From: Gemmiger sp. An120
Lineage (GTDB): Bacteria > Bacillota > Clostridia > Oscillospirales > Ruminococcaceae
Length of the DNA stretch: 64,000 nucleotides
Assembly: GCF_002160955.1 (NCBI RefSeq)
Contig: NZ_NFLN01000006.1
Coordinates: 105,581-169,580 of the forward strand
Direction of reading: 5' to 3'
The notes beneath the pieces were generated by a model. The model was not told the origin of the DNA. It saw nothing but the letters and a program-made list of their open reading frames with translations, and did not search any database. This document shows positions 4,807-40,001 of this stretch, in pieces. Numbering within the stretch: position 1 is the stretch's first letter; the number at the start of each line of letters is the position of its first letter. Both the position numbers and the translations under genes were made by a program.

Positions 4807-5985
4807 ATGATAAAGTTATATAGATATTTTATGCCAAGAAAAGACATTTTTGCAGGTGTCTCAGATTTAAATATTAATTCTTCATATGATATCGAAAAAT
4901 TTCGGGACATACTTCCAAAAAACTATGATAGCCAATATATAAGACGTCGAATTGAAACAGAGAAAAAGATGTACGATCTATTCAAGGCCAAAGGAGGCTG
5001 TCCCGAAAAAAGACATCCGTATTATTTAACTCTAGGTTGTTGCAATGAATGGTTTTTTAAGAAGAAACATTTTTTTGGTAGTGTTGTATTCGATCTTAAG
5101 GAATTTGATGAGAAAACCTTGTCTTTTACATATGGTGATTCCATACCAACATTTATGGACAGATTTTATGATGGTAAAGAATATCGTCGCAATATCTACA
5201 CGTTGAAAGAAATACAGGGTATAATACAAAAATATGGCTATCCCCAACAATGGAACCCCCTTGCAGAGCATGGACCGGAAAATTATATTGAAGTTCAAGT
5301 GTGGAGTGAGCACCCTCTTATAGCATATCGACCGTGCTTCTATGCTAAAAACAGCGGGCTTGAAGAGCTTGTTCCGCTACTATCGATGCGTATGATGAAA
5401 GCTAAGAATATCCCTGAAACTGGACAACGAGATTACTGTGAATGTATTAAAATAGCAAAATCTAGTCCATGGTGGGATTGGTTCTGTGCGAATATAAGAC
5501 AGGCAAACCCCAAGGTGTTTCAGGCTAATGTGATTCATGGTATTTCACACAGCTATAAATGCGCACTTATGGCGTTTGTCTTGGCTTCGTTTCAAAGGCT
5601 AGATGAAATTGATACCAAGACGCTTGTGTTAGCTGCACTTTATCATGACATCGGGCGAAGCTATTACGATAATGGCCGTTCACACGGTCAGATTGGTGCC
5701 GATATAGTTGTTCAATACATTAATTCTAATGAACGCATTCACTGGGGAAAATTAATTCATGCCATTCGTTTTCATGATGCACCAGAGATATTTTCTCAAG
5801 ATAAAACATTACGTAACTTAAAAGATGTTGATACTTTAGACTATCTTCGCTTGGGCTTTGGTGAATATAATCCTGAATTTTTGCGAGAAGAAGAATCGAA
5901 AAAGTTGATTTTATTTTCTCTTGAGTTAAACATTTACACATTCATTGATGCAAATATGATCTTGAAATTAGTGAGCGAGGAGTAA
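4807..5985 (+). CDS. HD-domain metal-dependent phosphohydrolase-like protein, first gene of the RiPP-like operon
   Basis: 392 residues, AT-rich unlike the recombinase before it. An HD domain lies at about 240-345: His244 (VIHGISHS), His280-Asp281 (LYHDIGRSYYD), a further His in RSHGQIGAD, and an acidic DVDTLDYL near 340. That is the usual H...HD...D metal set. The N-terminal ~230 residues are not a domain I recognise. Only 4 bp separate it from the GNAT gene, so they are co-transcribed. It could hydrolyse a phosphorylated or nucleotide substrate, or control signalling for the operon. The exact role in a peptide pathway is unknown. Confidence 0.75.
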   Translation: MIKLYRYFMPRKDIFAGVSDLNINSSYDIEKFRDILPKNYDSQYIRRRIETEKKMYDLFKAKGGCPEKRHPYYLTLGCCNEWFFKKKHFFGSVVFDLKEFDEKTLSFTYGDSIPTFMDRFYDGKEYRRNIYTLKEIQGIIQKYGYPQQWNPLAEHGPENYIEVQVWSEHPLIAYRPCFYAKNSGLEELVPLLSMRMMKAKNIPETGQRDYCECIKIAKSSPWWDWFCANIRQANPKVFQANVIHGISHSYKCALMAFVLASFQRLDEIDTKTLVLAALYHDIGRSYYDNGRSHGQIGADIVVQYINSNERIHWGKLIHAIRFHDAPEIFSQDKTLRNLKDVDTLDYLRLGFGEYNPEFLREEESKKLILFSLELNIYTFIDANMILKLVSEE

Positions 5986-5989
5986 AATA

Positions 5990-6538
5990 ATGGAATTAAA
6001 TATGCGCAACTATGTTGCTGGTGCAGATTATGGAGAAGTATATAGGCTTTTCACACACATGTCTGTTAATCCTATGATCATCAATAAACCGGATCACAAT
6101 AGCATGACAGTATTTTCCAAGTGGTTTGATCGACACTTAGAAACAGACTATCATGACTTTATGATATTCACTACGTCTGAAGAGCAATTCGTTGGTTTTG
6201 CGTATTCTTACGAGTTTCAAGAGCTCAATGGCCATTGTCAATTTACAGTGGCTGTAAAGCCAGAATTTCAAATGACAGGCGTAGGGGGAATTATTTCAAT
6301 CAAGTTTTTAAATTATCTTTTTGCACACTATAATTTGCGAAAGGTTTATATCCACATTTATGAACATAATGTTCATTCTCGCCAATGCGTAGAATCTTTT
6401 GGGTTTTGTCTAGAAGGAACATTGCAAGAGTATAGATTTTATAACGGCGAGTTTGAGAATGTATTGATTTATGCAGTCACAAGGGAGCGGTTTCACGCCA
6501 TTATTAAGCAAATGAACTTTTTTAATAATGGCGTATAA
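5990..6538 (+). CDS. GNAT-family N-acyltransferase in the RiPP-like operon
   Basis: 182 residues with the GNAT fold: the acyl-CoA loop region VAVKPEFQMTGVGG at about 84-97, then VYIHIYEHNVHSRQCVESFGF, the RimJ/RimL-like late motif in which an Asn helps bind acyl donor and a GF turn follows. It sits 4 bp after the HD gene and 32 bp before the repeat-peptide gene. GNATs are known RiPP tailoring enzymes, acetylating or fatty-acylating N-termini or side chains. An acyl ligase and an acyl carrier protein lie in the same operon, so the donor may be carrier-bound acyl. A self-resistance acetyltransferase is the alternative. Confidence 0.85.
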   Translation: MELNMRNYVAGADYGEVYRLFTHMSVNPMIINKPDHNSMTVFSKWFDRHLETDYHDFMIFTTSEEQFVGFAYSYEFQELNGHCQFTVAVKPEFQMTGVGGIISIKFLNYLFAHYNLRKVYIHIYEHNVHSRQCVESFGFCLEGTLQEYRFYNGEFENVLIYAVTRERFHAIIKQMNFFNNGV

Positions 6539-6570
6539 ACCATAATCTATATTGGAAGGAGGTAATTTGA

Positions 6571-6867
6571 ATGAAAAAGTTCGATGTCTTTAAGGCACCC
6601 GCTCTTTGCCCTGCCGGTGAAGCCCCTATCAGCCGTGCGCCTATGTTCTTTGCATCCTGGAAGGATGAAGGCTACGGGAGATGGAGCAATTCTACTGCAA
6701 GTTGGAAAGATAGCGGAGGCTGGAGCAACTCTACCGCTAGCTGGAAAGATGGCGGCTACGGACAATGGAGCAACTCTACCTCAAGCTGGCGAGATAGCGG
6801 AGGTTGGAGCAACTCTACTGCGAGTTGGCGAGACAGCGGAGGCTGGAGCAATTCTGGCGGAAAGTGA
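6571..6867 (+). CDS. RiPP precursor peptide with five Trp-X-Asp / Trp-Ser-Asn repeats
   Basis: 98 residues behind a strong GGAAGGAGG site. Residues 1-28 look like a leader (KKFDVFKAPALCPAG, one Cys at 13). Residues 29-97 are five tandem units of 13 or 15 residues: SW[K/R]D, then GG or GYG[R/Q], then WSNST[A/S]. All ten Trp (30, 38, 45, 51, 58, 66, 73, 79, 86, 92) start a three-residue motif, alternating W-K/R-D and W-S-N. Aromatic-X-Asn/Asp is the substrate signature of three-residue cyclophane-forming radical SAM enzymes (established for triceptides). Two radical SAM genes follow directly. The last unit ends GGK at the C-terminus. Crosslinking is inference; the repeat is directly visible. 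Confidence 0.85.
   Translation: MKKFDVFKAPALCPAGEAPISRAPMFFASWKDEGYGRWSNSTASWKDSGGWSNSTASWKDGGYGQWSNSTSSWRDSGGWSNSTASWRDSGGWSNSGGK
6655..6861 (+). repeat. Tandem 39/45-bp repeats inside the precursor gene
   Basis: Five in-frame units begin at 6655, 6700, 6739, 6784 and 6823, alternating 45, 39, 45, 39 and 39 bp. They are nearly identical at the DNA level (tggagcaa[ct]tct and agttgg/agctgg recur), which favours expansion and contraction by slippage or unequal crossing over. Confidence 0.9.
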
Positions 6868-6883
6868 TACAATTTAATTGACG

Positions 6884-6924
6884 GAGCGACCCGTCGGATG
6901 GGGACTCCATTCGACGGGTCGCTC
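6884..6924 (+). terminator. Perfect 13-bp stem-loop between precursor and maturase genes
   Basis: GAGCGACCCGTCG (6884-6896) pairs perfectly with CGACGGGTCGCTC (6912-6924), loop 15 nt, followed by an AT-rich stretch without a clean T-run. It starts 16 bp after the precursor stop codon. A leaky attenuator or 3'-stabilising hairpin here would let precursor mRNA greatly exceed maturase mRNA, a common RiPP operon design. Confidence 0.75.
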
Positions 6925-6952
6925 ACTATTTATTATTAGGAGGAGATTAGCA

Positions 6953-8158
6953 GTGGGGGCAAATAATGCTTATCTTGCTTTGGGGTATGCCTGTAATGAA
7001 AAATGTAGGTGTTGCCCCCTAATACATAAAAATGATCGTGAAAAATTTATTCCTTTGGATCGCCTTCTGAAGGAAGCTGATCAGATAGTATCATACGGCG
7101 TACGCGATGTAACGTTGTCTGGAGGAGAGCCGACAATTCATCAAGACCTGTTTCAATTAATTACATACTTTCACACGAAAGGAATCAATGTGCATATCCT
7201 TTCTAACGGAGAGCGTTTTTCAGATAAATCATATGCAAATGAATTCTTAGAATTGCAAAAAAATGGTGTATTAACAGTTACTACTACATTTCACAGTTGG
7301 AATGCAGCAGAACACGAGTATCAAAATGGTTCACAGGGAAGTTTTTTGCGAAGTCTGCAGGGCCTCCAGTATTTAGATAGAAATGGTGTTCAGATTTCGG
7401 TAAAACATTGCATTACAGCAAATAATTATCGCCAACTTCCCCAATATATTCAGTTTGTAATAGGGGCTTTTTCTTCCCAGGCAGAAATCCAGCTCTGGGG
7501 AATTGATTTAAATGGCTTAGAGAGAAAATTTGCGCAGGCAAATTTTGTTGATTTTCAATTGGTGAAACCTTACATTGAAGAGGCCATCGATGTGTTTGAG
7601 TCATCGGGAAGAGCAAAAGATCAAATTCTTTCAATCAACAATCTTCCTCTATGTATGTGTGATTGCTATTATTGGAAATATTTTACTTCACCCAAAGCAG
7701 ATTCTTATGTTGATCACAAAAAAGGCGGTGAAATCATGGAGGCGAATTCAGGACCGCTTTCTATACACTGCCAAAAGTGTCCCTTTTATAATAGTTGTAT
7801 GGGCGCCTATTTTAGCGATTTTGACATATTTGGTAATAATATTGTGTCCGTTCCAAAAGAGGAAGCTGAAATAAATCATTTTCAGAGAAGTTTCAAGTTT
7901 TATACAGAACAAGCTATAGAAAAGATGGTGTTTTCTCCGTATTTAAACCATGAACTACGTCGAAACGGCTACACGATAACAAATTATCTATCAGGAGAAA
8001 CTATCCAAATTCGACTAAAGACAAAGGAAATTCTCCATTTGCAGAAAATGCTGTTTTATGGTGTTTCTCTCGATGAATTAATTTTGTGCTTAAATGAATT
8101 TGGCTTAAACGGAGTGACAGTAGTGGACGAATGGATGAGAAAGGGAGTGATTGAATAA
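6953..8158 (+). CDS. Radical SAM peptide maturase (first)
   Basis: 401 residues from a GTG start, chosen because AGGAGGAG lies 6 bp upstream; earlier in-frame starts would run through the stem-loop. The CxxxCxxC cluster motif is Cys14, Cys18, Cys21 (YACNEKCRCC), and SGGEP gives the SAM-binding GGE. A C-terminal Cys group (CMCDCYYW and CQKCPFYNSCMG, about 225-285) looks like a SPASM/twitch-type auxiliary cluster region. The last ~90 residues are an extra domain. Its stop overlaps the next ATG by one base, so the two radical SAM proteins are translationally coupled and may act in sequence or as a pair on the repeat peptide. Confidence 0.9.
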   Translation: MGANNAYLALGYACNEKCRCCPLIHKNDREKFIPLDRLLKEADQIVSYGVRDVTLSGGEPTIHQDLFQLITYFHTKGINVHILSNGERFSDKSYANEFLELQKNGVLTVTTTFHSWNAAEHEYQNGSQGSFLRSLQGLQYLDRNGVQISVKHCITANNYRQLPQYIQFVIGAFSSQAEIQLWGIDLNGLERKFAQANFVDFQLVKPYIEEAIDVFESSGRAKDQILSINNLPLCMCDCYYWKYFTSPKADSYVDHKKGGEIMEANSGPLSIHCQKCPFYNSCMGAYFSDFDIFGNNIVSVPKEEAEINHFQRSFKFYTEQAIEKMVFSPYLNHELRRNGYTITNYLSGETIQIRLKTKEILHLQKMLFYGVSLDELILCLNEFGLNGVTVVDEWMRKGVIE

Positions 8159-9543
8159 TGGATTACCAATATCTTTTGCCTTTTGAATGGAACGAATTTT
8201 CATTTTGTGGTGCTCATTGTTTTTTTACAGACAAATGGTCTTTTTTGTTGTCCCAAAATGGTTCATCAATAATATTACAGAATAGTCTCGTGCAGTCCAT
8301 TGAAAACAAAAAATTGTCGGAAGATCTGGCGTTTAAACTTTATCAACGTGGATTTGGATTAGTATACGGACAGGAACGTTTTTCAAATTTCTGCCATGAT
8401 ATACGACCCACATTATTCATGATCGATTTTACAACCAAATGCAACTGTAATTGCATCTACTGCCTACGCCATTTTGAGGGAGTTGGAAATGATATTTCCG
8501 ATGATATGTTGAAACAGATTACTCAGTATATAATTACATACTGTAAGCAAAACAATATTTATCATATTTCTTTTCAGCCATGGGGTGGGGAACCACTAAT
8601 TATGCTGGATCAAATATTAAAGTGTAAGCAAATGTTTGAAAAAGCTCAAATCCGAGCTGATTTTAATATTCAAACGAACGGTTTGCTACTTAATCTAACA
8701 AATTATGAGAAATTGCGAAAGTCTCATATTGCCATTGGTGTGAGTCTAGATGGAATTGAAGCTGTGCATGATGCTCACCGGTTAGACACTTCTGGAAATA
8801 CTACGCATAGCAGAGTTGTCAAAAATATAAGGGAAATACTTGCAAAATATCCTGATGCAAATATTGGGACATTGAGCGTTAACTCTGTCTATTCTTTTGA
8901 TCATGTTGAAGAAAATATAGACTATTTAGTTAATGAAATTGGATTACACAGTATTAAGTTTAATTTGGTCCATCCTAGTGGTACAAAATCATTCGATTAT
9001 TCAATGTTAATTTCGGAAAAATCATTAGAAAAATACGTGGATAAGCTATTCAACGCAGTGGTTCAACAAACTCGATGTGGCCGAAATTTCCGAGAAGCAA
9101 ATATTACTGATAAACTGAGAAACCTTCTTGATCGTTCGAATAACAACATTTGCAATTCAATGGGGTGCCGCGGAGGCATTTCCTTTATTTCCTTTGATCA
9201 GAAAGGAAATATTTACCCTTGTGAGATGATTGGGCGACCTGAATTTTGCCTTGGAAATATCGAGAATCAGGGGGATAATCTTCTGGATCTGATTCATAGC
9301 GCCCAGGAGCATAATCATTATTATGCTCCGAAAAAAACAGAAACGTGTTCTGATTGTCCGTACCTGTATTTTTGTCGGGGAGGATGTAAAGCGAATTGCT
9401 TAGCATATGGCAAAGAACCTTTCCAGATCGATCACATCGAGTGCGCGTTGAACCGGAGTTTGTATCCCCGTCTGATTGAATTGATTCTCACAGAGCCTGA
9501 GTTAGTTGAAAGAATGTCAGGCCTTCACATACAAAGGAGGTAA
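8158..9543 (+). CDS. Radical SAM/SPASM peptide maturase (second)
   Basis: 461 residues. About 85 N-terminal residues without cysteine clusters could bind the precursor leader. The radical SAM core has Cys95, Cys99, Cys102 (CNCNCIYC), followed by PWGGEP and IQTNGLLL. A classic C-terminal SPASM region follows: CNSMGCRGG, IYPCEM, FCLGNI, CSDCPYLYFCRGGCKANC and a final IEC. SPASM maturases of this form build thioether, ether or C-C crosslinks in RiPPs, and those acting on aromatic-X-Asn/Asp motifs form cyclophanes. This is the best candidate for modifying the ten Trp motifs. It ends at TAA immediately before the next gene. Confidence 0.93.
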   Translation: MDYQYLLPFEWNEFSFCGAHCFFTDKWSFLLSQNGSSIILQNSLVQSIENKKLSEDLAFKLYQRGFGLVYGQERFSNFCHDIRPTLFMIDFTTKCNCNCIYCLRHFEGVGNDISDDMLKQITQYIITYCKQNNIYHISFQPWGGEPLIMLDQILKCKQMFEKAQIRADFNIQTNGLLLNLTNYEKLRKSHIAIGVSLDGIEAVHDAHRLDTSGNTTHSRVVKNIREILAKYPDANIGTLSVNSVYSFDHVEENIDYLVNEIGLHSIKFNLVHPSGTKSFDYSMLISEKSLEKYVDKLFNAVVQQTRCGRNFREANITDKLRNLLDRSNNNICNSMGCRGGISFISFDQKGNIYPCEMIGRPEFCLGNIENQGDNLLDLIHSAQEHNHYYAPKKTETCSDCPYLYFCRGGCKANCLAYGKEPFQIDHIECALNRSLYPRLIELILTEPELVERMSGLHIQRR

Positions 9544-11319
9544 TTGGATGTGTTAGATCAATCCTTTTTTTATAAACGATTTTCCATTGGGTTGACCTTG
9601 GACACTAGTTTAAAAGAATTTAATGCATTCTTGGACAAATATTCGGATTATATTAATAATTTTTATTTTTCGCTGCCAATGGGTGATAAATTCCATGCAA
9701 GGACACAGGTTATAAAACAAATGCATGACCCTAAACTTGTAGATCGATTCTGGCAGCTTCTGGGTTGTATTCGTTCCCATAACATCAAGATGGAACTGGT
9801 ACTAAATAATGGAAGGGTAAGCCGTGATGACGTCAAAAGATCTGCTCGGATGTTATATGATCACGGAGTCAATGTTGATTTGGTTGGAATAACGGATGAT
9901 ATTTATAATGATGTAAAATCCTTTTTCCCAACACAAAGGATTGTCTATAGTTTTAAAAATCATATCCATACGGAAAAAGAGTTTGCAGCCTTGACTCACC
10001 GGTATGATGAGATCGTATTAGGGCGTCAGAATATCCGAAATACATCCCTTTTTTCATTTATCAAGCAGCATTTGCACGCTGATGTAGTCCTTCTGCTTAA
10101 TAACGGATGTTCACACGTTTGTGGTGGATGCACAACTTTGAAGAATTGCCATCGTGCTTATTATCAAGAAAAATTTCAGCATAGTCCGGAATATCTGTAT
10201 GCGCTGCAAAGTCTCATGCCTTTTGAAATTCATACCGGGCTGCTGGATGTGTCTAATGTGCACTTATTCAAAATCAGTTCCCGCAATGCGTCTCTGAAAT
10301 ATATAAAAGATTGCCTGGATAGCTATCTGTTTTGTGAGGAGGATTCGTACATCAAGCAAAACATCGAAAATTATATGCTATGGTCCAGACTAGCTTGGCA
10401 TACAGAGTATTTCAACGGTTTTTCATTGGAGCGTATCAGAGCAACAAAGGAAAAGATTTACCAAGGAATAAAATCGAGTGAATTCCCCTCCTATGTTCGA
10501 GTGATATTGGATTTACGCAATCAGTATCTGTTCCAGGGAGACCAGGTGCCGGATCTACCTGTATTGGAAGAAAAACTGAAAACATTTTTTGGCAGAATTC
10601 CCATGAAGGTAGAAGGGTACCTCATTGGCGTATCAAACTGTGCCAATCTATTAAGCCACATTTATATAAATCATATGAAGTCTCTTCTTAATACACTGAG
10701 CAGTACTGGGCGTAAAGTGTATTTTTCCGTTCCGCCTCTAACACAAAGCCAGCACTTCGCATTTGTAAATCTTTGGAATTGTTTGAAGGAATGTATCAAA
10801 GCAAAGTATCTTGATTGTTTAGTGGTTAATGATATTGACACAGAGTCTTTTTTCAAGAATTATTTTCAAGTTTCGATAGCTTTCGGAGAGAGGCTAACGA
10901 AAAGACATATCCAGACTGTAAAAAATGACTATCTGACAGGAAATGAACCAGGCTTTGGAAAAGACCTAATAGATGCATTTCTTCGGGAAGAATATGTCAA
11001 AAATGATATTTGTTTTATATTGTGCAATATGCCGGGTGGAGGTATGTGTATTAGCCCTTATGAATCTGTCCAGATTCATACTTTAGTTGGACTTGTAGAA
11101 AACTATGATGGAGCCTGTCCGCAGTCTCATGAAAAAACGTGCGATGGGAAATGCATGACCGCAATGAACACGATTCTGAAATCTGAATATGGAGATAAGT
11201 TGGTGATTTGCGCCAATTCGGTATGCGATGTTGTGAAAATCTCAGATAGTGTTCTGAAAACTGTTTTAGAAAATAGGGCTTGCGTTGTTATTCCATCAAT
11301 TTGGAGGGAGTTGCTGTAG
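9544..11319 (+). CDS. TIM-barrel-like protein with iron-sulfur-type Cys cluster, possibly a tandem U32-like duplication
   Basis: 591 residues; I do not recognise an exact family. The start is TTG at 9547 or its neighbour at 9544, with GGAGG 4-8 bp upstream. The N-terminal ~190 residues show alternating beta strands and helices (FSIGLTLD, NFYFSLPM, KMELVLNN, VDLVGITD, RIVYSF, EIVLGR, DVVLLLNNGC). A Cys set NGCSHVCGGCTTLKNC at about 188-202 follows. This resembles the U32 peptidase-like barrel with a cluster after a late strand. Residues about 355-560 look like a second, more divergent copy (EGYLIGVSN, KVYFSVPP, DCLVVNDI) with its own cluster CPQSHEKTCDGKC. CxxxCxxC in the first half could alternatively be a displaced radical SAM motif. 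It is translated in series with the maturases and ligase. Confidence 0.6.
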   Translation: MDVLDQSFFYKRFSIGLTLDTSLKEFNAFLDKYSDYINNFYFSLPMGDKFHARTQVIKQMHDPKLVDRFWQLLGCIRSHNIKMELVLNNGRVSRDDVKRSARMLYDHGVNVDLVGITDDIYNDVKSFFPTQRIVYSFKNHIHTEKEFAALTHRYDEIVLGRQNIRNTSLFSFIKQHLHADVVLLLNNGCSHVCGGCTTLKNCHRAYYQEKFQHSPEYLYALQSLMPFEIHTGLLDVSNVHLFKISSRNASLKYIKDCLDSYLFCEEDSYIKQNIENYMLWSRLAWHTEYFNGFSLERIRATKEKIYQGIKSSEFPSYVRVILDLRNQYLFQGDQVPDLPVLEEKLKTFFGRIPMKVEGYLIGVSNCANLLSHIYINHMKSLLNTLSSTGRKVYFSVPPLTQSQHFAFVNLWNCLKECIKAKYLDCLVVNDIDTESFFKNYFQVSIAFGERLTKRHIQTVKNDYLTGNEPGFGKDLIDAFLREEYVKNDICFILCNMPGGGMCISPYESVQIHTLVGLVENYDGACPQSHEKTCDGKCMTAMNTILKSEYGDKLVICANSVCDVVKISDSVLKTVLENRACVVIPSIWRELL

Positions 11320-12708
11320 ATGGAAAATTATCCGGATTACCCTGTACGCAAAGTTTTGAATCTGCTTGCATTGCTGCAAACTAGCGTTGAACTTTATGGC
11401 ACGCAGGCTGCTTTTTGTAGAACACAAGAAAAGATTACATATCATCAGTTTGAGAGAGCAGTGCTGTGTGTTGCAGGTTCTCTGATACACGATCAGGGCC
11501 GTTTTATTCTAATTCATGCAGAAGATCCTTTTTTATTTGCAGCGGCTTATTTTGCAACTGTAATTACAGGGAATATTGCAGTACTGATAGATATGGAACA
11601 TTGCCCATCTGGCGCAGTACTTCCTCCCATTGAATATACTCTGACCGATACGGACATTCTCAAACATCTGGATATCCCTCCCATTTCCTACAATAGCGTA
11701 CCCCCTCAAAACTCAGAAACGGTTTGTACTATTATTTACAGTTCTGGTACCACTAGTGCATCAAAAGGAATCATGTTATCGCAAAAAAATCTTTGTTGCA
11801 ATGTTATGAGTGGTTTGGAAAAATATCGTTTTTCCTGTGAGGATCGGTTGCTCCAATTAATTCCTTATTATCATGCTTTCGGTCTAGTGTGTGATTTGCT
11901 GGCTCCGTTGTTGTCTGGAAGTGCAATCTGCATACCGGACAGCAAAGCGCAGGCGCTATCCCAAATGGCATCTTTCAGACCGACGATGATGAATGTGCCT
12001 CCCGCTGTAGCAGAAGCGTTTTTGACTCTAGCTAGACGAACGAAAAATCTAGATATATTTACTGGCGGACAACTCCGCAAACTATTATGTGGAGGAGCAG
12101 GCCTTCGGGCAGAAACAACAAAAGCTTTACTGCAATGGAATATTAAAGCGTTAGGCTGCTATGGTGTAAGCGAATGTTCACCTTGTATTAGCGTTAACAG
12201 GGATAACTATTATAAAGCAGGTAGTGCTGGAATTCCGTTAAATTGCAATAAAGTCCGCATCGCTGAGGATGGTGAAATTATAATCCGCGGAGATAATGTA
12301 ATGCTTGGGTACTATGGTGATCCAGAGTTAACTGCGCAAGTAATTGTAGACGGAGAATACCATACTGGCGATCTTGGATATTGGGATGAAGATGGATTCC
12401 TCTATGTCAGTGGAAGAAAAAATAATATAATTGTATTCGAAGATGGAACCAAATGTTTGCCCGAAAAATTAGAAGAAGTTATTTTAAAGCACCCTGGAGT
12501 GCAAGAGGTCATAGTTTTTGCAAGGAAGACAAGCAGCGGATTACGACTATGCTCCTTAGTTTATGTTCCAGAGATAGCGAGACAGGAAGAGATAAAAAAA
12601 TATATTCTGAGCATCCCAACCTATCAGCCTTTTTTTAGCATTGAATTTACACAAAAGCCGTTACCAAAAACTAATACTGGAAAGGTGAAGAGAAATGTAT
12701 GGAACTGA
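11320..12708 (+). CDS. AMP-forming acyl/aminoacyl ligase
   Basis: 462 residues of the ANL superfamily. The P-loop is YSSGTTSASKGIM at about 140-152, followed by GCYGVSECSP, HTGDLGYWDEDGF, SGRKNNII and the C-terminal lysine motif LPKTNTGKVKR. This family activates a carboxylate as acyl-AMP and passes it to CoA or a carrier phosphopantetheine. The next gene, overlapping its end by 10 bp, is an acyl carrier protein, so acyl-ACP loading is the natural reading. It is slightly shorter than usual (about 500-550), with a compact C-terminal subdomain. An acyl donor for the GNAT at 5990 is my inference. Confidence 0.93.
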   Translation: MENYPDYPVRKVLNLLALLQTSVELYGTQAAFCRTQEKITYHQFERAVLCVAGSLIHDQGRFILIHAEDPFLFAAAYFATVITGNIAVLIDMEHCPSGAVLPPIEYTLTDTDILKHLDIPPISYNSVPPQNSETVCTIIYSSGTTSASKGIMLSQKNLCCNVMSGLEKYRFSCEDRLLQLIPYYHAFGLVCDLLAPLLSGSAICIPDSKAQALSQMASFRPTMMNVPPAVAEAFLTLARRTKNLDIFTGGQLRKLLCGGAGLRAETTKALLQWNIKALGCYGVSECSPCISVNRDNYYKAGSAGIPLNCNKVRIAEDGEIIIRGDNVMLGYYGDPELTAQVIVDGEYHTGDLGYWDEDGFLYVSGRKNNIIVFEDGTKCLPEKLEEVILKHPGVQEVIVFARKTSSGLRLCSLVYVPEIARQEEIKKYILSIPTYQPFFSIEFTQKPLPKTNTGKVKRNVWN

Positions 12709-12917
12709 AGGACTTAATTAAAGTAATTGAACGATTCATACCCGATTATAGGAATAGCGTAACAGATGAAACACTCCTAACGGATTTGGGCCTTTCTTCC
12801 TTGGACATGATGATTTTAATTTGTGAAATAGAGAAAATTTATAAAATTGATATCGATTTAACTATGTTGAAAAATATAAAAACTGTTAAGGACTTTTATG
12901 CTGCAGTTATACAATGA
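12699..12917 (+). CDS. Acyl carrier protein
   Basis: 72 residues, four-helix acidic protein with DLGLSSLDMM; Ser34 is the expected phosphopantetheine attachment site (the usual Asp before it is Ser). The gene overlaps the ligase stop by 10 bp, implying coupled translation and a fixed ligase-carrier pair. No phosphopantetheinyl transferase is in the window, so the host enzyme must activate it. Such ligase/ACP pairs deliver an acyl or aminoacyl group to a tailoring acyltransferase. Confidence 0.92.
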   Translation: MELKDLIKVIERFIPDYRNSVTDETLLTDLGLSSLDMMILICEIEKIYKIDIDLTMLKNIKTVKDFYAAVIQ

Positions 12918-12931
12918 AAGGAAGGGCTTAA

Positions 12932-13567
12932 ATGCAAAGTTTTCTGTTCACAGAATTGCTGTTTCCTGCTATTTCTACAGTAATCGGGGCGTTGGTTGGC
13001 GGATTATTTGCCTATAAAATCGCAAAAGAGAGATTTGCGTCTGATTATATAAACGAAGGGAAACTAGGGATTTCGATAGTGAGCGATTCCGCTAGGAACA
13101 TCAAAGATACGGCCAATGAGTTGTACATTATTTTAATAAATAGGACAGGCCGTTCGACGACAGAATTTCTTTCATTACTTATAGATAAAAATAATGCTTT
13201 AGAAAATTATTTGAATATCTTTACATCGGACTGGAAAAATTATCGAGAAAAAATCCTTTCTTGTACTTTTCCTTACATTTGTAAAGATTCGGATAAGCGC
13301 AAAAATTTCTGTGAGATATCTGAAACAATCAAAGAGACATATATAATTATCGGAGAATATCAAGATCTAATAAAAGATTGCTACAAGGAAATCAAGCGTG
13401 AGGACACACGCGAATTTACGGCGAAAACTATATCATTCATGGGCACACTCGATGCTCAAACAAAGCTGTCATCTGCAAAAGATCGATTGCAACAATTGGT
13501 TAAAAAATGCGAATTAATATGTAACCAACAAAGGTTAACGGATGAAAATGAAACTCGTCGGGCATGA
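12932..13567 (+). CDS. Membrane-anchored protein of unknown function, last gene of the cargo operon
   Basis: 211 residues. One N-terminal transmembrane helix (about 6-27: FPAISTVIGALVGGLFAY) is followed by a long, mostly helical cytoplasmic part with no recognised motif. It starts 14 bp after the ACP stop, behind GAAAGGAAGGG, so it belongs to the operon. Possible roles are immunity, a membrane scaffold or an unrelated defence-type effector. None is supported by a motif. Confidence 0.7.
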   Translation: MQSFLFTELLFPAISTVIGALVGGLFAYKIAKERFASDYINEGKLGISIVSDSARNIKDTANELYIILINRTGRSTTEFLSLLIDKNNALENYLNIFTSDWKNYREKILSCTFPYICKDSDKRKNFCEISETIKETYIIIGEYQDLIKDCYKEIKREDTREFTAKTISFMGTLDAQTKLSSAKDRLQQLVKKCELICNQQRLTDENETRRA

Positions 13568-13813
13568 TAGTGGCGAATAAATTATTGCATTGCCATATGA
13601 GTTGTTGGAAGTTAATAAACGCAAAAATTTATGAGTTCACTGTGGTTAAATTCAACTATATATGGTTTTTGTTTCAACTTTGACACTATTTCTATGTACG
13701 CGGTACGCGCAATAATGATTCTACATATGTATTTATCAATTCAGTCGTAACAACTCCTTCTCGGCTAAGAGAAGGGGTTGTTTTTTATGTATTTTGAATT
13801 CATCACTTGACAT
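13568..13813. other. AT-rich junction between the left element and the interrupted VirD4 gene
   Basis: About 245 bp with no gene. It contains one terminator (13751-13786) and ends where the sequence changes into VirD4 coding frame at about 13811-13817. This is where the right attachment site of the left element should be. No long direct repeat is visible, as expected for serine-recombinase cores of only a few bases. Confidence 0.55.
13751..13786 (+). terminator. Rho-independent terminator closing the RiPP-like operon
   Basis: CAACTCCTTCTC pairs with GAGAAGGGGTTG (one G-T pair), then TTTTTT. It isolates the cargo operon from the interrupted VirD4 remnant. Confidence 0.85.
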
Positions 13814-14098
13814 TATGGCAAAGAGTTGATGTCACAGGACGAGATCGCCACGATGGACGGAGGCAAGTGTATTTTGCAGGTGCGCGGTGTCAGGCCATTT
13901 TTCAGTGAGAAATACGACATTACCCGTCACCCCCGCTATAAATACCTTTCCGACGCCGACAAGAAAAACTATTTTGACGTGGACAGGTACTTGACCGCCC
14001 TGCGCCGGAAACGGCAGCGGGTGGTTTCGCAGGAGGAAACCTTTGACCTCTACGACATAGACCTGTCGGACGAAGATATGGCCGCCGTGAACGAGTGA
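13811..14098 (+). pseudogene. 3' remnant of the VirD4-type coupling protein gene, interrupted by the left element
   Basis: About 95 codons survive, reading GKELMSQDEIATMDGGKCI...VRPFFSEKYDIT...YKYLSDADK. That is the conserved C-terminus of the VirD4/TraG coupling ATPases of Clostridial ICEs, which are normally about 600 residues. An in-frame stop lies at 13808-13810, so no full protein can be made. The Walker A and B parts must lie beyond the left edge, on the other side of the inserted element. The remnant is directly followed by the rest of the transfer operon, as in intact relatives. Translation from TTG 13826 or ATG 13829 is possible but would be non-functional. Confidence 0.85.
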
Positions 14099-15644: not shown

Positions 15645-15659
15645 TTGGAGGTGCAACCG

Positions 15660-16577
15660 ATACGAATAGGACTGATTGATGTGGATTCCCACAATTTTCC
15701 CAACCTCTGCCTGATGAAGCTGTCTGCCTACCACAAGGCGCAGGGCCATCAAGTGATGTGGTGGAACCCGCTGTTTTACTTTGATGTGGTCTACAAAAGC
15801 CGGGTGTTTACGGACACCTATTCCAAAGACAAGATCACCGTCACCAACGCCGGAACCGTTATCAAGGGCGGCACGGGGTACGGCCCCGGCCCTGACCTGC
15901 CGGATGCAATCGAACACACCTACCCGGACTATTCACTCTATCCGCAGTATTCCGAAACCGCCTACGGCTTTTTAAGCCGGGGCTGTCCAAGGGGCTGCGG
16001 ATTTTGCATTGTCGGAGGCAAGGAGGGCCGCCGGAGCCGGAAAGTGGCCGACCTGTCCGAGTTTTGGCGGGGCCAGCGGGAAATCAAACTGATGGACGCA
16101 AACCTGCTGGCCTGTCCCGACCATGAAAGCCTGCTTTTGCAGCTTGCCGACAGCCGGGCGCTGGTAGACTTCTCCCAAGGGCTTGACATCCGCCTGATAA
16201 CGCCCGACAATGTGGCGCTTCTCAACCGTGTGCGGACGAAAGCCGTACATTTCGCATGGGATAACCCCAACGAGGATTTGACGGGCTATTTCCAGCGGTT
16301 CGTGGAAATGACGGCGATTAAGAATTTCCGCAATCGCCGGGTGTATGTGCTGACGAACTATGGCAGCACCCATGAACAGGACTTGTACCGCGTGGAAACC
16401 CTGCGGCGCATGGGCTTTGATCCGTTTGTGATGATCTATGAAAAGCCCACGGCCCCGCCCATTACCCGCTGTTTGCAGCAATGGGTGAACAACAAGCGGG
16501 TGTTTCACGTCGTCGAAAACTTTTACGACTTTGAGCCGGTAAAAAAGCTGCGGAACAGCAGCATGGAAACGAGGTGA
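15660..16577 (+). CDS. Radical SAM protein embedded in the conjugation operon, apparent ATA start
   Basis: About 305 residues. An N-terminal Rossmann-like part begins RIGLIDVDSHNFPN and is followed by the cluster motif LSRGCPRGCGFC (CxxxCxxC). Continuation strands are LMDANLLA and VDFSQGLDIRL. It resembles B12-binding-domain-like radical SAM proteins carried by many Clostridial ICEs; the reaction is unknown. No ATG fits: the GGAGG at 15648-15652 is 7 bp before an ATA codon at 15660, exactly where homologous proteins begin with Met. GTG 15651 or TTG 15645 are alternatives but overlap the ribosome site. Confidence 0.85.
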   Translation: MRIGLIDVDSHNFPNLCLMKLSAYHKAQGHQVMWWNPLFYFDVVYKSRVFTDTYSKDKITVTNAGTVIKGGTGYGPGPDLPDAIEHTYPDYSLYPQYSETAYGFLSRGCPRGCGFCIVGGKEGRRSRKVADLSEFWRGQREIKLMDANLLACPDHESLLLQLADSRALVDFSQGLDIRLITPDNVALLNRVRTKAVHFAWDNPNEDLTGYFQRFVEMTAIKNFRNRRVYVLTNYGSTHEQDLYRVETLRRMGFDPFVMIYEKPTAPPITRCLQQWVNNKRVFHVVENFYDFEPVKKLRNSSMETR

Positions 16578-35741: not shown

Positions 35742-36125
35742 TTGGAGATAGTCGTAAGCAATAAAGCAAGCCGACCTCTGTATGAGCAGATTTCTTCACA
35801 GATCAAGGCGGCTATTATGAGTGGCGAACTGAAAGCCGGGGAAGCCATTCCCTCGGTGCGTTCTCTGGCAAAATCATTACACATCAGTATTCTTACAGTA
35901 CAAAAGGCGTATGCCACCCTACAAGAAGATGGTTTCATTGAAACAACGGCTGGAAAAGGCTGCTATGTATCAGCACAAAACCAAGACTTCTATCTTGAAG
36001 AACAGCAGAAGAAGATAGAAGAAAAATTTGCGGAGGCAATCGAGATCGCCCGCACAAGCGGTATATCTCTCGATAAGTTGACCGGCTTACTAACACTTAT
36101 GTATCAGGAGGATGATAGAGAATGA
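35742..36125 (+). CDS. GntR/YtrA-family repressor of the ABC transporter
   Basis: 127 residues from a TTG start (GGTGAG 4-9 bp upstream). Winged helix at about 10-75 with PLYEQISSQIKAAIMSGEL, IPSVRSLAKSL and VQKAYATLQEDGFIE. The short C-terminal helix has no ligand domain, as in the YtrA subfamily that controls ABC transporters sensing cell-wall-active peptides. Its stop overlaps the ATPase start (ATGA), forming one operon with the two transporter genes. Confidence 0.92.
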   Translation: MEIVVSNKASRPLYEQISSQIKAAIMSGELKAGEAIPSVRSLAKSLHISILTVQKAYATLQEDGFIETTAGKGCYVSAQNQDFYLEEQQKKIEEKFAEAIEIARTSGISLDKLTGLLTLMYQEDDRE

Positions 36126-36973
36126 ACAATGCTTTATCAATTTCAGGTTTGACGAAAACCTATAAAGATTTTGTATTGGACGGTGTTTCATTTTCTGTTC
36201 CCAGCGGTTCGATTGTAGGACTGATTGGCGAGAACGGAGCAGGAAAAAGCACGACCATCAATGCAGTCCTTGGCCTCATTCAGAAGGAGGCTGGAAACAT
36301 TACTATTTTAGGCAAGGAACAACTTGACAACAAGACAAAGGAACAGGTTGGTGTCGTATTCGATGGCAGCAACTATCCAGAAATTCTCTCTCCCAGAAGG
36401 CTTAACCGGGTTTTGAAGAATATCTATCACTCATGGGATGAACACACCTTTCTGGGTCTGTTGAAAAAACTATCCCTGCCGATTGATAAGCCGATCAAGC
36501 AGTATTCCAGAGGCATGAAAATGAAATTGGCAATTTCTGCGGCTTTATCTCACAATTCCAAACTGCTGATTTTGGACGAAGCTACCAGCGGACTTGACCC
36601 CGTTATTCGGGACGACATCTTGGATATTCTGCTGGATTTTGTTCAAGATGAAGAACATTCTATTTTGATTTCTTCACACATTACCACCGATCTTGAAAAG
36701 ATTGCTGATTATATCGTTTTCATACACGAAGGAAAAGTCGTTTTTTCAAAGCCCAAAGACGAGCTGACAGAACAGTATGGTATTATAAAGTGCGGAGCCG
36801 CACAGTTTGATGCTTTGGATAAATCCGACATCATTGTGTATCGGAAGATGGATTATGAATGGCAGGTTTTAATTGCCGACCGAATGGCAATGCAAAAAAA
36901 ATATCCCAAGGCAATGATTGTACCGGCAACGATTGATGAAATCATGTTGCTCTATGTAAAGGGGGAAAAGTGA
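36122..36973 (+). CDS. ABC transporter ATP-binding protein (YtrB/BcrA-like)
   Basis: 283 residues. Walker A GENGAGKST, signature YSRGMKMKL (a YSxGM variant usual in antibiotic-type exporters), Walker B LLILDEATSGLDP, and ISSHITTDLEK as switch region. The C-terminal ~70 residues are an extra domain. It pairs with the permease that overlaps its stop. Confidence 0.95.
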   Translation: MNNALSISGLTKTYKDFVLDGVSFSVPSGSIVGLIGENGAGKSTTINAVLGLIQKEAGNITILGKEQLDNKTKEQVGVVFDGSNYPEILSPRRLNRVLKNIYHSWDEHTFLGLLKKLSLPIDKPIKQYSRGMKMKLAISAALSHNSKLLILDEATSGLDPVIRDDILDILLDFVQDEEHSILISSHITTDLEKIADYIVFIHEGKVVFSKPKDELTEQYGIIKCGAAQFDALDKSDIIVYRKMDYEWQVLIADRMAMQKKYPKAMIVPATIDEIMLLYVKGEK

Positions 36974-37602
36974 TGAAAGGCATCCTACTGAAAGATCTTT
37001 ATATCGCCAAAAGTGGTATTATTATTACTCTGACAAGCCTGTTTGTTTTGACCTTTGGACTTTCGTTTTTGCTTGATGTCACTGCAATTTTAATGCTCGC
37101 GCCAGCCGTTTCAACTGCTGCGGTTTATATAAGCATTACCAATGATGCAAGTTCCAAATGGAATAAAAATGTGATTACAATGCCTGTAACAAGAGCGCAG
37201 ATTATTGGAACCAAATACATTCTTTATATTCTGCTTTCAGCGGTAGGGATCATTGTAGTGTTGGTGTCACTTGGAGCTTTGTCCTTAATGGGTATAACGG
37301 TAACACTTTATTCGATGCTGTTCAATGCAGCTATTGGAATTAGCGTAGCCTTGCTTGCAGGAGGTATCAGCCTGCCTTGTGTGTACTTTTTTGACGCAGA
37401 AAAATCTCAAATCGTTTATATGATAGCTTTTGTTGCATCTACGGGCATTATTACCGTTCTGGTTCTGTTGATAAATATATTTATTCCCGTTAAAAACAAT
37501 ATTCTATTAGCGTTTTATATCGTACTGGCAATTTCGTTTGTATGGTTTGCTGTGTCCTACAAAATTGCTGCCTACGCTTATCAGAAAAAAGATATTACTT
37601 GA
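36973..37602 (+). CDS. ABC-2 type permease
   Basis: 209 residues with six hydrophobic helices (about 15-35, 38-58, 80-105, 110-135, 145-168, 175-200). It begins MKGILLKDLYIAKSG, the amphipathic entry helix of ABC-2 permeases. It overlaps the ATPase stop by ATGA. With the GntR regulator it forms a YtrA-B-C-like sensing or export module of unknown substrate. Confidence 0.9.
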   Translation: MKGILLKDLYIAKSGIIITLTSLFVLTFGLSFLLDVTAILMLAPAVSTAAVYISITNDASSKWNKNVITMPVTRAQIIGTKYILYILLSAVGIIVVLVSLGALSLMGITVTLYSMLFNAAIGISVALLAGGISLPCVYFFDAEKSQIVYMIAFVASTGIITVLVLLINIFIPVKNNILLAFYIVLAISFVWFAVSYKIAAYAYQKKDIT

Positions 37603-37619
37603 CAAGAACCAATATAGAA

Positions 37620-37664
37620 AAGCGCCGGACGCGGCGGCCTGTTGGCCCTGCGCCCGGCGTTTTC
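37620..37664. terminator. Sister terminator 3
   Basis: AAGCGCCGGACGC pairs with GCGCCCGGCGTTTT; closely related to 34116 and 35193. It ends the GntR-ABC operon. Confidence 0.8.
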
Positions 37665-37676
37665 CTATGGGTTATT

Positions 37677-37788
37677 CTACGCATTTCAAAGCCCGTTTCA
37701 GCGGGGATTGGAGCAATCCTATTGCCGCCCCGTCAATCGCTTGCCAGAAGCCCGCTATGGCGGCCTATTCAGCGACTTAACTGCGTAG
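37677..37788. repeat. 113-bp structured repeat, copy B
   Basis: Starts CTACGCATTTCAAAGCCCGTT like copy A (35514) and ends ACTGCGTAG. Its right end overlaps the last codons of the Cys_rich_VLP gene, so insertion of the module replaced or fused that gene end. Confidence 0.7.
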
Positions 37789-38140
37789 CTTGCAGGTATC
37801 TTTTCCGCTGCCTTTCGGCCTCTTGCTTCCGGCGCATCCGCACCGCGCAATCGGGACAGTATTTCGCCCGGTTGGATTTCGGTGTAAACGCAGCCCCGCA
37901 CACGGCGCACCGCTTCACGCTATCCCGGCTCTGGATGATCTCGGCATACAGCGCCCCGTCCAGCGGAAGAACAGCGGCACGAAACCACCGGCACAGCAAC
38001 GAATAGGAAATGCTCTGGACGCACACACATTCCTCGCCGTCGTCCAGCAAGAGGCAGTTCCCGTCACAGTAGTTGCAGCACTCATGCGTCAGCTTCCGGG
38101 CCTTGCGATATTGAGGGTAATTCATTCTCGGTATGCTCAT
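37769..38140 (-). CDS. Cys_rich_VLP-type zinc protein
   Basis: 123 residues. The N-terminal Cys group CCNYCDGNCLLLDDGEECVCVQ is typical of the Cys_rich_VLP family, found beside ICE relaxases. A C-terminal zinc knuckle CAVCGAAFTPKSNRAKYCPDC follows, then an Arg/Lys/Gln tail. The gene overlaps the relaxase gene by 4 bp (same operon). A role as relaxosome or regulatory partner is likely but unproven. The last residues fall inside repeat copy B. Confidence 0.85.
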   Translation of the reverse strand: MSIPRMNYPQYRKARKLTHECCNYCDGNCLLLDDGEECVCVQSISYSLLCRWFRAAVLPLDGALYAEIIQSRDSVKRCAVCGAAFTPKSNRAKYCPDCAVRMRRKQEAERQRKRYLQATQLSR

Positions 38141-39468
38141 AGCTCTTGTGCCTGCTCCTTTCCCGGCGTCACCCGCAAAATGCTGTCTACATTCTGCTTG
38201 ATAATGCCGTATTCTTTCAGCTCTCGCTTGACTTCGCCGTACTGTTCGTACAGCCGCGCTTTCTGCTTGTCCAGCTCCCGGTACTCGGCTTTCAGGGCGG
38301 CCAGATCGGGCAGCCTTGTGATTCCGGCGTCCTTGATGGCCTTTGCAGCAGCCTCGTACAAAATGAGCTGACTTTCATGTTCGCGCCGGAACGCAGCCTT
38401 GTCTTTGGCCTTGCGGTATTCCAGCACCACGGGCCGGAGCTGCTTGTAGGTGGTGAGGTTCTTTATCAGCACCGCCATGTTTCCAAGACGCCGTTCCACG
38501 TCTTTGAGGGCCGCAGCAGTCTCGTCGTTGGCCGCGCTGATCTCCGCGACCTTGCTTTCCAGCTCGGCATATTGCTCTATGCCATGCTCGGTAAGAAAGT
38601 TCATTGTCTTTGCGGCCTGCTTCAAATTTTCGAGCTTCGCCCAACGTGCATAGCCCTCGCTCTGCTGGGCCTTGATGTTGTTCTCCAAGGCGATCCGCAG
38701 GGTGATACCCTTGCGCTGCCGGTTCGGGCCTCTGTCCACGGCCAGCCTTTTGATCCGGCGGGTGATGGCTTCCTCGGTGTAGTTCTCACCCAGCGTCTTG
38801 CAGCGGGTGAAGCGTTCCTGTCCGGGGGCGCGGAACGAGATAAATTTGCCCTGCTTGATCTCATAGCCCTGCGCCGCCATGAGCCGGAGAAAATCGTCAA
38901 AGTCTTTGGCCTGCGGGATTACGGCGTCGATGGCAGCTTTCAGTTTGGCTTTCCAGCTCTTGCCCTTGCGCCCGGCATCCCATTCCGCATAGCTCTTGCC
39001 TTTATCCCGGCTGGGCTGTACCACCGACAAACCGTGTTCCCGGCACAGCCGGTCACTGGTACGCCGGATATAGGCGTAGCTCTGCCGGTTGGAATTGTAC
39101 TTGCGGTGGTTCACCATATCCACGGCGCAGAAAATCAGGTGATTGTGGACGTGGCCCTTGTCGATGTGGGTTGTCAGCACATAGGAGTATTTTCCTTGCA
39201 GCACTTCGTCGGCAAGCTGCTTGCCGATCTCATGGGCCTGTTCCGGCGTGGCCTCGCCGGGGGAAAAGGATTGGATCAGATGGTGGGCCAGATTGTTGCC
39301 TTTCTGGATGGCCTGCGCCAACAGCATTTCAAATTCTATGTCCGCTGTTTCATAGGAGCAGCCAAAAGAGGACACCAGCATTTTGTCCTCGGTCTTGTCC
39401 GGGTTCTCGATGTAGTCCAGCGCCTTTTTCAGCGTTGACTTGATAGGATGTATCTTTGTAACTGCCAT
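38137..39468 (-). CDS. MobP-type relaxase (VirD2/MobA mobilization nuclease) of the ICE
   Basis: 443 residues. The candidate catalytic Tyr is Tyr19 in KALDYIENPDKT. HIDKGHVHNHLIF at 101-113 is the metal-binding histidine motif (His106, His108, His110) of the relaxase family. The C-terminal half is helical and charged. It nicks oriT and pilots the strand. It overlaps mobC by 40 bp. Expected target: the repeat at 39778-39879, upstream of mobC. Confidence 0.94.
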   Translation of the reverse strand: MAVTKIHPIKSTLKKALDYIENPDKTEDKMLVSSFGCSYETADIEFEMLLAQAIQKGNNLAHHLIQSFSPGEATPEQAHEIGKQLADEVLQGKYSYVLTTHIDKGHVHNHLIFCAVDMVNHRKYNSNRQSYAYIRRTSDRLCREHGLSVVQPSRDKGKSYAEWDAGRKGKSWKAKLKAAIDAVIPQAKDFDDFLRLMAAQGYEIKQGKFISFRAPGQERFTRCKTLGENYTEEAITRRIKRLAVDRGPNRQRKGITLRIALENNIKAQQSEGYARWAKLENLKQAAKTMNFLTEHGIEQYAELESKVAEISAANDETAAALKDVERRLGNMAVLIKNLTTYKQLRPVVLEYRKAKDKAAFRREHESQLILYEAAAKAIKDAGITRLPDLAALKAEYRELDKQKARLYEQYGEVKRELKEYGIIKQNVDSILRVTPGKEQAQEL

Positions 39469-39758: not shown

Positions 39759-39777
39759 TCATTCACCGTCCTTTCTG

Positions 39778-39879
39778 AACAGGGGTTTGGGGTTTTCCCC
39801 AACAAGCAACCGGCCACGGCCCGCAGGGACAGGGACGGGCCGGTTTTCGGAAGTGTGGCTACACTTCCTATGCTTGCTA
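39778..39879 (-). other. Putative oriT of the ICE (repeat copy 2)
   Basis: Immediately upstream of mobC on the minus strand. Reading on that strand: TAGCAAGCATAGGAAGTG, hairpin AAGTGTAGCCACACTT, a GC-rich imperfect hairpin, TTGCTTGTTGGGGAAAACCCC and AAACCCCTGTT. Conserved with 25104-25205 although non-coding. Position, hairpins and conservation support oriT; no nick site is proven. Confidence 0.65.
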
Positions 39880-40001
39880 TTCATCTTTTCGTATTCTCCC
39901 ACGATGAAAGCGCAGATTTGCCGAACACTTCCACAGAAAAAGAAAAACGCCATAGAAACAATGCGTTTCCATAGCGTCCTTTTGCCTGTTTTGCTTTGTG
40001 C

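Follow-up and report, generated by a model that had tools for sequence, protein, structure and literature searches.

A Gemmiger operon with a Trp-repeat peptide, two Hxs-like radical SAM enzymes and acylation genes, predicted to make a crosslinked peptide

Results

An operon centred on a Trp-repeat peptide

The 64,000-nucleotide stretch of Gemmiger sp. An120 DNA analysed here (contig NZ_NFLN01000006.1; hereafter the window) carries at 4807–12917 an AT-rich plus-strand operon of eight genes, which we read, with moderate confidence and from sequence comparison, as a pathway for a triceptide-type ribosomally synthesized and post-translationally modified peptide (RiPP) formed by an Hxs-like pair of radical S-adenosylmethionine (SAM) enzymes, with likely O2-independent hydroxylation and likely acylation of the C-terminal Lys. 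The original prediction, made from the letters of the window, had proposed a crosslinked, acylated RiPP with two radical SAM maturases; comparison with related loci supports that proposal and sharpens it to a predicted crosslink between Trp and the Asp or Asn two residues on. The association goes beyond chance, because both a motif shuffle and contig sharing among relatives, described below, speak for it. The pathway is apparently undescribed, as had been supposed: among the titles and abstracts listed by the literature searches there was no described system with this gene set, and the whole set matched no named RiPP class, no NCBIfam cut-off being reached among the families listed. The eight genes, which a ninth open reading frame (ORF) of 211 aa follows at 12932–13567, are, in order:

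4807–5985, plus strand: HD-domain protein, 392 aa; about 230 N-terminal aa of no assigned family, then the HD domain (PF01966, 1.2e-8)
5990–6538, plus strand: GNAT acyltransferase, 182 aa (PF13420, 7.7e-10; PF13302, 9.6e-10), containing QMTGVGG
6571–6867, plus strand: precursor peptide, 98 aa, with leader MKKFDVF, Trp-motif core and C-terminal GGK
6953–8158, plus strand: RS1, HxsC-like radical SAM protein, 401 aa (PF04055, 1.5e-16)
7889–8155, plus strand, within RS1: RiPP recognition element (RRE) predicted from the fold, RS1 residues 313–401
8158–9543, plus strand: RS2, HxsB-like radical SAM/SPASM maturase, 461 aa (PF04055, 2.8e-9)
9550–11319, plus strand: ORF6, U32-like Fe-S protein of two domains, 589 aa; probably the fusion of a U32 pair
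11320–12708, plus strand: ANL acyl-/aryl-adenylating ligase, 462 aa (PF00501, 1.8e-48; PF13193, 6.9e-6)
12699–12917, plus strand: acyl carrier protein (ACP), 72 aa (PF00550, 2e-8), serine motif GLSSLDMM

The Trp motif of the precursor is conserved among divergent loci

A scan of genome contigs returned at least 80 loci, of which 15 (L002–L016) were taken as relatives of the window system and L017–L081 were set aside as general radical SAM matches; of 20 viral loci only L082 was kept, which makes 16 relative loci. The window peptide, described at first as 98 residues with five Trp-rich repeats, indeed contains ten Trp arranged in five double repeats, with W-K/R-D alternating with W-S-N, and D or N stands at i+2 for all ten. 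A search of 5.8 billion proteins yielded 36 relatives of this peptide, in which, pooled, N or D occupied i+2 for 323 of the 327 Trp with two residues after them (WSN 158, WKD 91, WKN 41, WRN 18 and WRD 6; relative P0153, with a frame change after its first motif, is included). Since these 36 are close kin, a second count was made over nine divergent precursors, from the window, L002, L005, L007, L008, L009, L010, L012 and L016, and D or N was found at i+2 for 63 of 68 Trp, while the other offsets gave 18 (i+1), 6 (i+3) and 2 (i+4) of 68. Shuffling the non-Trp core residues produced a mean of 19.1 and a maximum of 31, and 63 was reached in 0 of 5000 shuffles. Further inspection showed that the alternation of a motif with variable X2 and one with S/N recurs in L016 and L008, and that a leader of the form [FL]x[IV][FL] precedes a W-motif core in the 36 relatives and in each of the eight divergent loci outside the window. 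The repeats vary among loci in X2 and spacing, and the family has the general features of a RiPP precursor, namely a short peptide with a conserved leader and a variable core beside maturase genes. The NCBIfam models gave no match to the window peptide with an E of 1 or less. The peptide contains no His, hence no His-X-Ser repeats.

Two unusual precursors were noted. In L008 (2739–3404), the W-motif peptide runs in frame into a region of about 115 aa beginning CYITTA, which gave no Pfam match at E 0.01. A second precursor type, ending W-D/E-x-x-W and not GK, is encoded in L009 (3662–3874), L010 (5034–5273) and L012 (11013–11252), loci that have a U32 pair and lack acylation genes.

RS1 and RS2 are relatives of HxsC and HxsB

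RS1 carries the Cys motifs CX3CX2C at 14–21 and CX2CX5C at 273–282, without the full SPASM Cys set, and RS2 carries CX2CX5CX3C in its Cys 397–410. The best NCBIfam family for RS1 is HxsC (TIGR03977), at 118 bits against a cut-off of 268. RS2 scored highest with sulfatase maturases (130 bits), followed by HxsB and DynA (119 bits each), all under cut-off, which for HxsB is 370; with the models of cyclophane-forming enzymes it gave 81 bits for GrrM/OscB (cut-off 310), 92 for YhhB (445), 72 for AmcB (425) and 69 for FxsB (370). The matches listed comprise 25 of 58 families for RS1 and 25 of 68 for RS2, and the XncB model is not among them. Pairwise comparison matched RS1 to Mesorhizobium HxsC (2e-18) and RS2 to Mesorhizobium HxsB (7e-17), and by these similarities the two proteins are relatives of HxsC and HxsB. 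We rejected the Hxs label for the window system as such, both scores being less than half of their cut-offs and His-X-Ser being absent.

The C-terminus of RS1 has a predicted RRE fold, which in the relatives is encoded as a separate gene. In the fold search the top rows were mostly RRE-bearing PDB chains, with a best Foldseek E of 1.2e-3; the top VIA rows for the RRE model also included the nonribosomal peptide synthetase oxidase BmdC and the halogenase CmlS, and therefore not every row is a RiPP protein. Residues 313–401 of RS1 are thereby a predicted RRE, for which binding is likewise a prediction of the model. The N-terminus of RS2 gave 16% (P 0.0016) in profile comparison with the RRE set. 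The small Mesorhizobium gene preceding hxsB was tried as an RRE and dropped, as it did not match the RRE profile.

The gene set recurs in other loci

The original prediction named loss of the peptide from beside the maturases as a ground for rejection; in the relatives the peptide is kept there, with a predicted RRE in addition. RS1 lies near RS2 in 15 of the 16 relative loci, the remaining one, L004, stopping 180 bases beyond the RS1 match. In L002, on a contig titled Candidatus Methanomethylophilaceae archaeon, relatives of all eight genes occur, rearranged and distributed over both strands, and we therefore regard the pathway as a recurring one and not a chance cluster. Recurrence of nine genes had been the expectation, and eight of them bear it out, whereas the ninth ORF is not conserved. 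The L002 cluster also encodes a phosphopantetheinyl transferase (7546–8235; PF01648, 1.9e-12), and an organism without a fatty-acid ACP would need its own such enzyme for the ACP. The GC content is 0.42–0.47 in this cluster and 0.62 and 0.66 in two adjoining 1-kb steps outside it. The flank carries HcyBio (8e-149) and a NIL/ferredoxin gene, which presumably fits a methanogen chromosome. L002 is thus apparently archaeal, a binning error being conceivable.

When an identical size of the longest contig was taken to mean the same contig, with 120 of 173 RS1 matches listed, RS1 shared a contig with the peptide 8 times and with ORF6 16 times (15 sizes), and the peptide with ORF6 6 times, whereas jittering the sizes gave on average 0.25, 0.36 and 0.07 such pairs. 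Gene order varies: ORF6 precedes RS1 in L004, and L016 has the order RRE-RS2-RS1. The HD protein has a relative in L002 (35% identical) and no match in the other 15 relative loci. Judged by gene content, the core in distant relatives is the RRE, the two radical SAM enzymes and the peptide, with the U32, HD and acylation genes optional. In whole genomes RS1 was found in its own genome only (1/61; 1/394 for the order; 1/391 for the class, in overlapping draws), as was the L016 RS1 among 398 genomes of its phylum; the L016 partner protein (see below) was found in 0 of 391 genomes, a set without a positive control. L003 (9995–12289) and L082 (9995–17864) carry RS1/RS2 relatives with a different gene set, which by inspection includes more proteins of SPASM type and a NUDIX protein similar to isopentenyl diphosphate isomerase; in L003 the region is one 764-aa open frame.

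ORF6 is probably a fused U32-like pair

ORF6 had been described as a U32-like barrel, which stands in so far as its model has two domains, one a TIM barrel, and its relatives tie it to U32; ORF6 itself, as mentioned below, is without a Pfam match above cut-off. In the five relative loci with U32 genes (L007, L009, L010, L012 and L016), a UbiU-like U32 protein is always accompanied by a second U32-like partner. PF01136 is found in the U32 counterparts of L007 (1.6e-24, 86.9 bits) and L016 (1e-27, 97.4 bits), and those of L009, L010 and L012 gave 42–69 bits with the UbiU model, the UbiU and TrhP cut-offs being 440 and 534. Profile comparison, in which 11 decoys gave at most 0.5%, related the relatives' U32 family to E. 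coli UbiU/TrhP/RlhA (99.3%) and the partner family to the four E. coli U32 proteins (93%). The second half of ORF6 matched the partner family at 97.5–98.1% and E. coli UbiU/TrhP/RlhA at 69.6%, and its first half matched the E. coli U32 set at 4.6%. These values come from five sequences each; with two-sequence sets ORF6 gave 5% for U32 and 41% for the partner. Against PDB sequences the ORF6 profile had two matches only, the best at E 1. The Cys of the first half follow CX3CX2CX5C in 46 of 46 rows, and in the second half C366 lies far upstream of C525, C533 and C537, UbiV-like in layout only; the relatives' U32 proteins have CX6CX11CX39C and their partners CXnCX18CX3C. By profile similarity, ORF6 is probably a fused version of the two-protein unit of the five relatives. 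Three of these loci (L009, L010 and L012) have no acylation genes, and because the U32 pair there adjoins W-motif precursors, we favour the peptide over the acyl group as the putative substrate of ORF6.

The CX3CX2C of ORF6 also raised the possibility of a radical SAM protein, which was set aside as, in the model, this motif comes after strand seven and not after strand one. Viral contigs searched with the ORF6 and partner alignments gave no loci. In L007 (4678–5697) and L016 (11542–12567), and only there, a third radical SAM protein lies between the peptide and the U32 pair.

Acylation genes coincide with a C-terminal Lys

GNAT, ANL ligase and ACP genes occur together in six loci (the window, L002, L005, L007, L011 and L016), and in the five relatives the ACP likewise adjoins the ligase. 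The ACPs of L002 (PF00550, 1.8e-6), L005, L007 and L016 are above the PF00550 cut-off, and that of L011 matches the window ACP at 6e-5. The QMTGVGG of the window GNAT fits the acyl-donor P-loop pattern [Q/R]XXGX[G/A], and GNATs are described as acylating side-chain amines or N-termini of other RiPPs (both from PMC13060382). Five of these six loci have a recognised precursor, and all five precursors end in GK, while none of the four from L008, L009, L010 and L012, which lack GNAT, ANL and ACP genes in the fetched stretch, ends in K; such a split (5/5 against 0/4) has a chance of 1 in 126, kinship ignored. Among the 36 close relatives 33 end in GK and 34 in K. We predict the C-terminal Lys as the acylation site because it is the only, or nearly only, core Lys in L005, L007 and L016. 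In L011 (2726–4162), a GNAT fused to a GT2 glycosyltransferase adjoins the GNAT, ligase and ACP genes.

Operon structure and mobile context

All nine plus-strand ORFs of the original prediction are present across 4807–13567, and they are packed as closely as described: RS1 overlaps RS2 and the ligase overlaps the ACP, and the remaining spacings within the eight genes are 0–85 bases. GC content is 0.34–0.43 per 1-kb step from 4 to 14 kb of the window, against 0.49–0.53 in the preceding 4 kb and 0.53–0.60 in the following 8 kb. The predicted enzyme families were recovered over cut-off (PF01966, PF13420/PF13302, PF04055 twice, PF00501 and PF00550), and there was no Pfam match above cut-off for the peptide, ORF6 or the last ORF. 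RS1 starts at GTG 6953, with taggagga upstream, and not at TTG 6878 of the mechanical ORF. For ORF6, GTG 9550 (589 aa) appears the more likely start over TTG 9544 (591 aa), because the closest relatives also have 589 aa and aaaggagg lies upstream. Three further features were recorded:

6884–6924, plus strand: 18-bp hairpin in the gap between peptide and RS1, from folding energy and shuffles
12932–13567, plus strand: 211-aa protein with a hydrophobic stretch at its N-terminus; no Pfam match above cut-off and no NCBIfam match
13749–13787, plus strand: intrinsic terminator, hairpin and U run (z −5.29 for 13740–13800)

The terminator of the original prediction is present. The 91-nt stretch 6865–6955 with the 18-bp hairpin folds at −39.5 kcal/mol (z −6.27; 0 of 200 shuffles as low). 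The hairpin is possibly an attenuator or mRNA stabiliser, and could, judging by its position, hold precursor mRNA above the level of the enzyme mRNA. The 211-aa ORF gave no relative in tblastn against the fetched relative loci and is probably accessory, outside the conserved set.

A serine recombinase and a VapE-like protein are encoded just upstream of the operon. Window 13817–14098 encodes the C-terminal end of a VirD4-like coupling protein (84 of its 93 residues align with Enterococcus records at 82% identity), and another coupling-protein piece, L103 592–2178 (C48:90091–91677), has a foreign-looking end and stops at C48:91677. Because these two pieces, about 27.7 kb apart, flank the operon, an insert of about that length carrying the operon seems, from this arrangement, to interrupt an integrative element within its coupling-protein gene, the ends of the insert being approximate. 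The original prediction had called the element mobilizable; the recombinase, VapE-like protein and VirD4-like fragment agree with a mobile element, but mobilizable is not confirmed because the 'relaxase' ORF at 79–1092 has no Pfam match. The same insert (L102 1–5636; C48:93000–98635) carries genes for a UvrD-type helicase and, adjoining it, a TOPRIM-containing ATPase of the OLD type, a pair that we take to resemble Gabija, and further on for a DNA methylase that includes an Mrr nuclease domain; these genes look like phage-defence cargo. Elsewhere in the window, a 310-aa protein with SRGCPRGCGFC (15645–16577), apparently radical SAM, lies amid conjugation genes, and 36122–47734 holds apparent ABC transporter genes and a two-component pair, by inspection of the peptide-resistance kind.

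Discussion

A model of the pathway and the points against it

We propose a model in which the leader MKKFDVF would bind the predicted RRE at the end of RS1, and RS1 and RS2 would then join a Trp ring carbon to the Cβ of Asp or Asn at i+2 in the triceptide manner, as the motif and the enzyme families suggest. The core would become a rod holding as many as ten three-residue rings. Perhaps one radical SAM enzyme serves each motif register, a guess prompted by the alternation, which is also present in L016 and L008. ORF6 would likely act like UbiU/UbiV and TrhP and hydroxylate the peptide independently of O2. A carboxylic acid would be activated by the ANL ligase and loaded onto the ACP, from which the GNAT would likely move the acyl group to the terminal Lys, as the co-occurrence of these genes suggests. 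The model gives no step to the HD protein, and leader removal and export would fall to host functions. More tentatively, the system may constitute a new RiPP class, combining a two-register cyclophane rod, a fused UbiU/UbiV-type peptide hydroxylase (the first such), dedicated acylation of the C-terminal Lys, and bacteria-to-methanogen transfer with a phosphopantetheinyl transferase; we hold this fuller version to be possible but doubtful.

Several observations weigh against the model. As to crosslinking, RS1 and RS2 reach no NCBIfam cut-off among the matches listed, cyclophane-forming families included; the motif fit is weak in L012 (1/4 Trp), L010 (3/4) and L005 (5/6); and no precursor with at least three W-X-D/N motifs was found in L003, L004, L006, L011, L013, L014, L015 or L082, L004 being covered by one of two precursor scans only. 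As to hydroxylation, ORF6 has no PF01136 match, and its relative P0173 reaches 13.0 of the 22.4 bits required. The first half of ORF6 matches the relatives' U32 family weakly (35% one way, 7% the other) and shows no match to E. coli UbiU taken by itself (0.2%), and the partner shows no significant match to E. coli UbiV alone (profile 0.5%; BLAST likewise). The structural match of ORF6 is tied with pyruvate kinases, and its Cys spacing differs from the published U32 patterns CX6CX15CX3/4C, CX6CX16CX38C (UbiU) and CXnCX12CX3C (UbiV). L005, L008 and L011 yielded no U32-like genes, and therefore U32 is not tied to the other modules. As to acylation, the L011 ACP, at 15.2 bits, misses the PF00550 cut-off of 20.8, the L002 ligase lacks the C-terminal NTGK lysine motif present in other ligases, and the GK correlation comprises nine related loci, of which L008 starts near the cluster and L009 is just 7.7 kb. 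Finally, neither a transporter nor a leader peptidase was recognised anywhere in the operon.

Alternative explanations

The alternative that survives best, which we nonetheless find unlikely, is a diverged Hxs-like RiPP whose radical SAM pair does other chemistry (crosslink, epimerisation or oxidation), W-X-D/N being a binding motif. HxsC as the best family of RS1, HxsB in a shared second place for RS2 among the matches listed, and the pairwise matches to the Mesorhizobium proteins (2e-18 and 7e-17) would all suit it, as would the top score of RS2 with sulfatase maturases (130 bits) and the wording of PMC9062424, where HxsB and HxsC are putative maturases. The position of D/N, however, is that of triceptides, i+2, with no other offset close. 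Improbable in our view is a scaffold role of the peptide, in which small molecules derived from Trp would be excised from it and then finished by the ligase, ACP, U32 protein and GNAT. PQQ (pyrroloquinoline quinone) and mycofactocin are such molecules, cut from a peptide scaffold; the ligase, ACP and oxidase genes do resemble small-molecule chemistry, repeat units could yield many copies, and no exporter was recognised in the operon. Yet the whole GK-ending core is kept in five loci, the repeats differ among loci in X2 and spacing, and neither the operon nor L002 showed a recognisable peptidase. We find it hardly credible that the ligase, ACP, GNAT, HD and U32-like genes are cargo with no relation to the radical SAM RiPP next to them: the radical SAM pair does stand with neither module in the fetched stretch of L003, L006, L008, L013, L014, L015 and L082, but the joint presence of eight genes in L002 in another order and orientation largely refutes it, peptide, RS1 and ORF6 share contigs far beyond chance, and GNAT, ANL and ACP are found together again in five other loci, while the U32 pair is present in five.

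Read as a triceptide-type pathway, the operon places four enzyme kinds around one repeat substrate: an Hxs-type pair, an RRE-HxsC-like fusion, a fused U32-like pair and a ligase/ACP/GNAT line. No system combining these four appeared among the papers listed by the literature searches. The repeat substrate makes the chemistry readable by mass, at 2 Da per ring and 16 Da per hydroxyl, and the system offers a handle on the function of Hxs-type pairs. It could also be used to test whether U32 oxidases act on peptides, as the unfused pair in loci without acylation genes suggests. The archaeal copy with its own phosphopantetheinyl transferase, if true, would be a complete pathway moved between domains.

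Comparison with known systems

The nearest chemistry is that of triceptides, whose enzymes bond Trp to the Cβ of an Asn, Asp or Arg at i+2; the XncB, OscB and MscB systems share with the window an aromatic-X-X motif, in which Trp pairs with Asn/Asp at i+2, and a radical SAM/SPASM enzyme adjoining the precursor (PMC11002830). The L007 precursor matches the GrrA/OscA1 model at just E 0.42 (11 of 31 bits). Unlike triceptides, the window has two radical SAM enzymes, one with a C-terminal RRE, as predicted, and incomplete SPASM Cys, ten motifs of two alternating types, and acylation and U32-like genes, and RS2 falls under the GrrM/OscB, YhhB, FxsB and AmcB cut-offs.

Hxs systems pair the same two radical SAM types, and the Mesorhizobium order of small gene, hxsB and hxsC resembles the RRE-RS2-RS1 of L016, although the small gene does not match the RRE profile. 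In contrast to Hxs systems, the window has no His-X-Ser repeats and scores below half of both cut-offs.

UbiU/UbiV, TrhP and RlhA are TIM-barrel-type Fe-S proteins that act as pairs (PMC6747719, PMC11574389). The relatives' U32 proteins match the TrhP/UbiU models, with Cys layouts close to UbiU/UbiV, whereas in the window the two parts are fused, the first half has CX3CX2CX5C and PF01136 is not matched. The substrates of the known U32 oxidases are quinone precursors or RNA and not peptides.

Selidamides, goadvionins and other GNAT-acylated RiPPs likewise have a GNAT in the RiPP cluster, and the characterised examples named in PMC13060382 are, unlike the window product, lanthipeptides. Unlike those of selidamides and goadvionins, the window GNAT is accompanied by its own adenylating ligase and ACP, and its predicted site is the C-terminal Lys.

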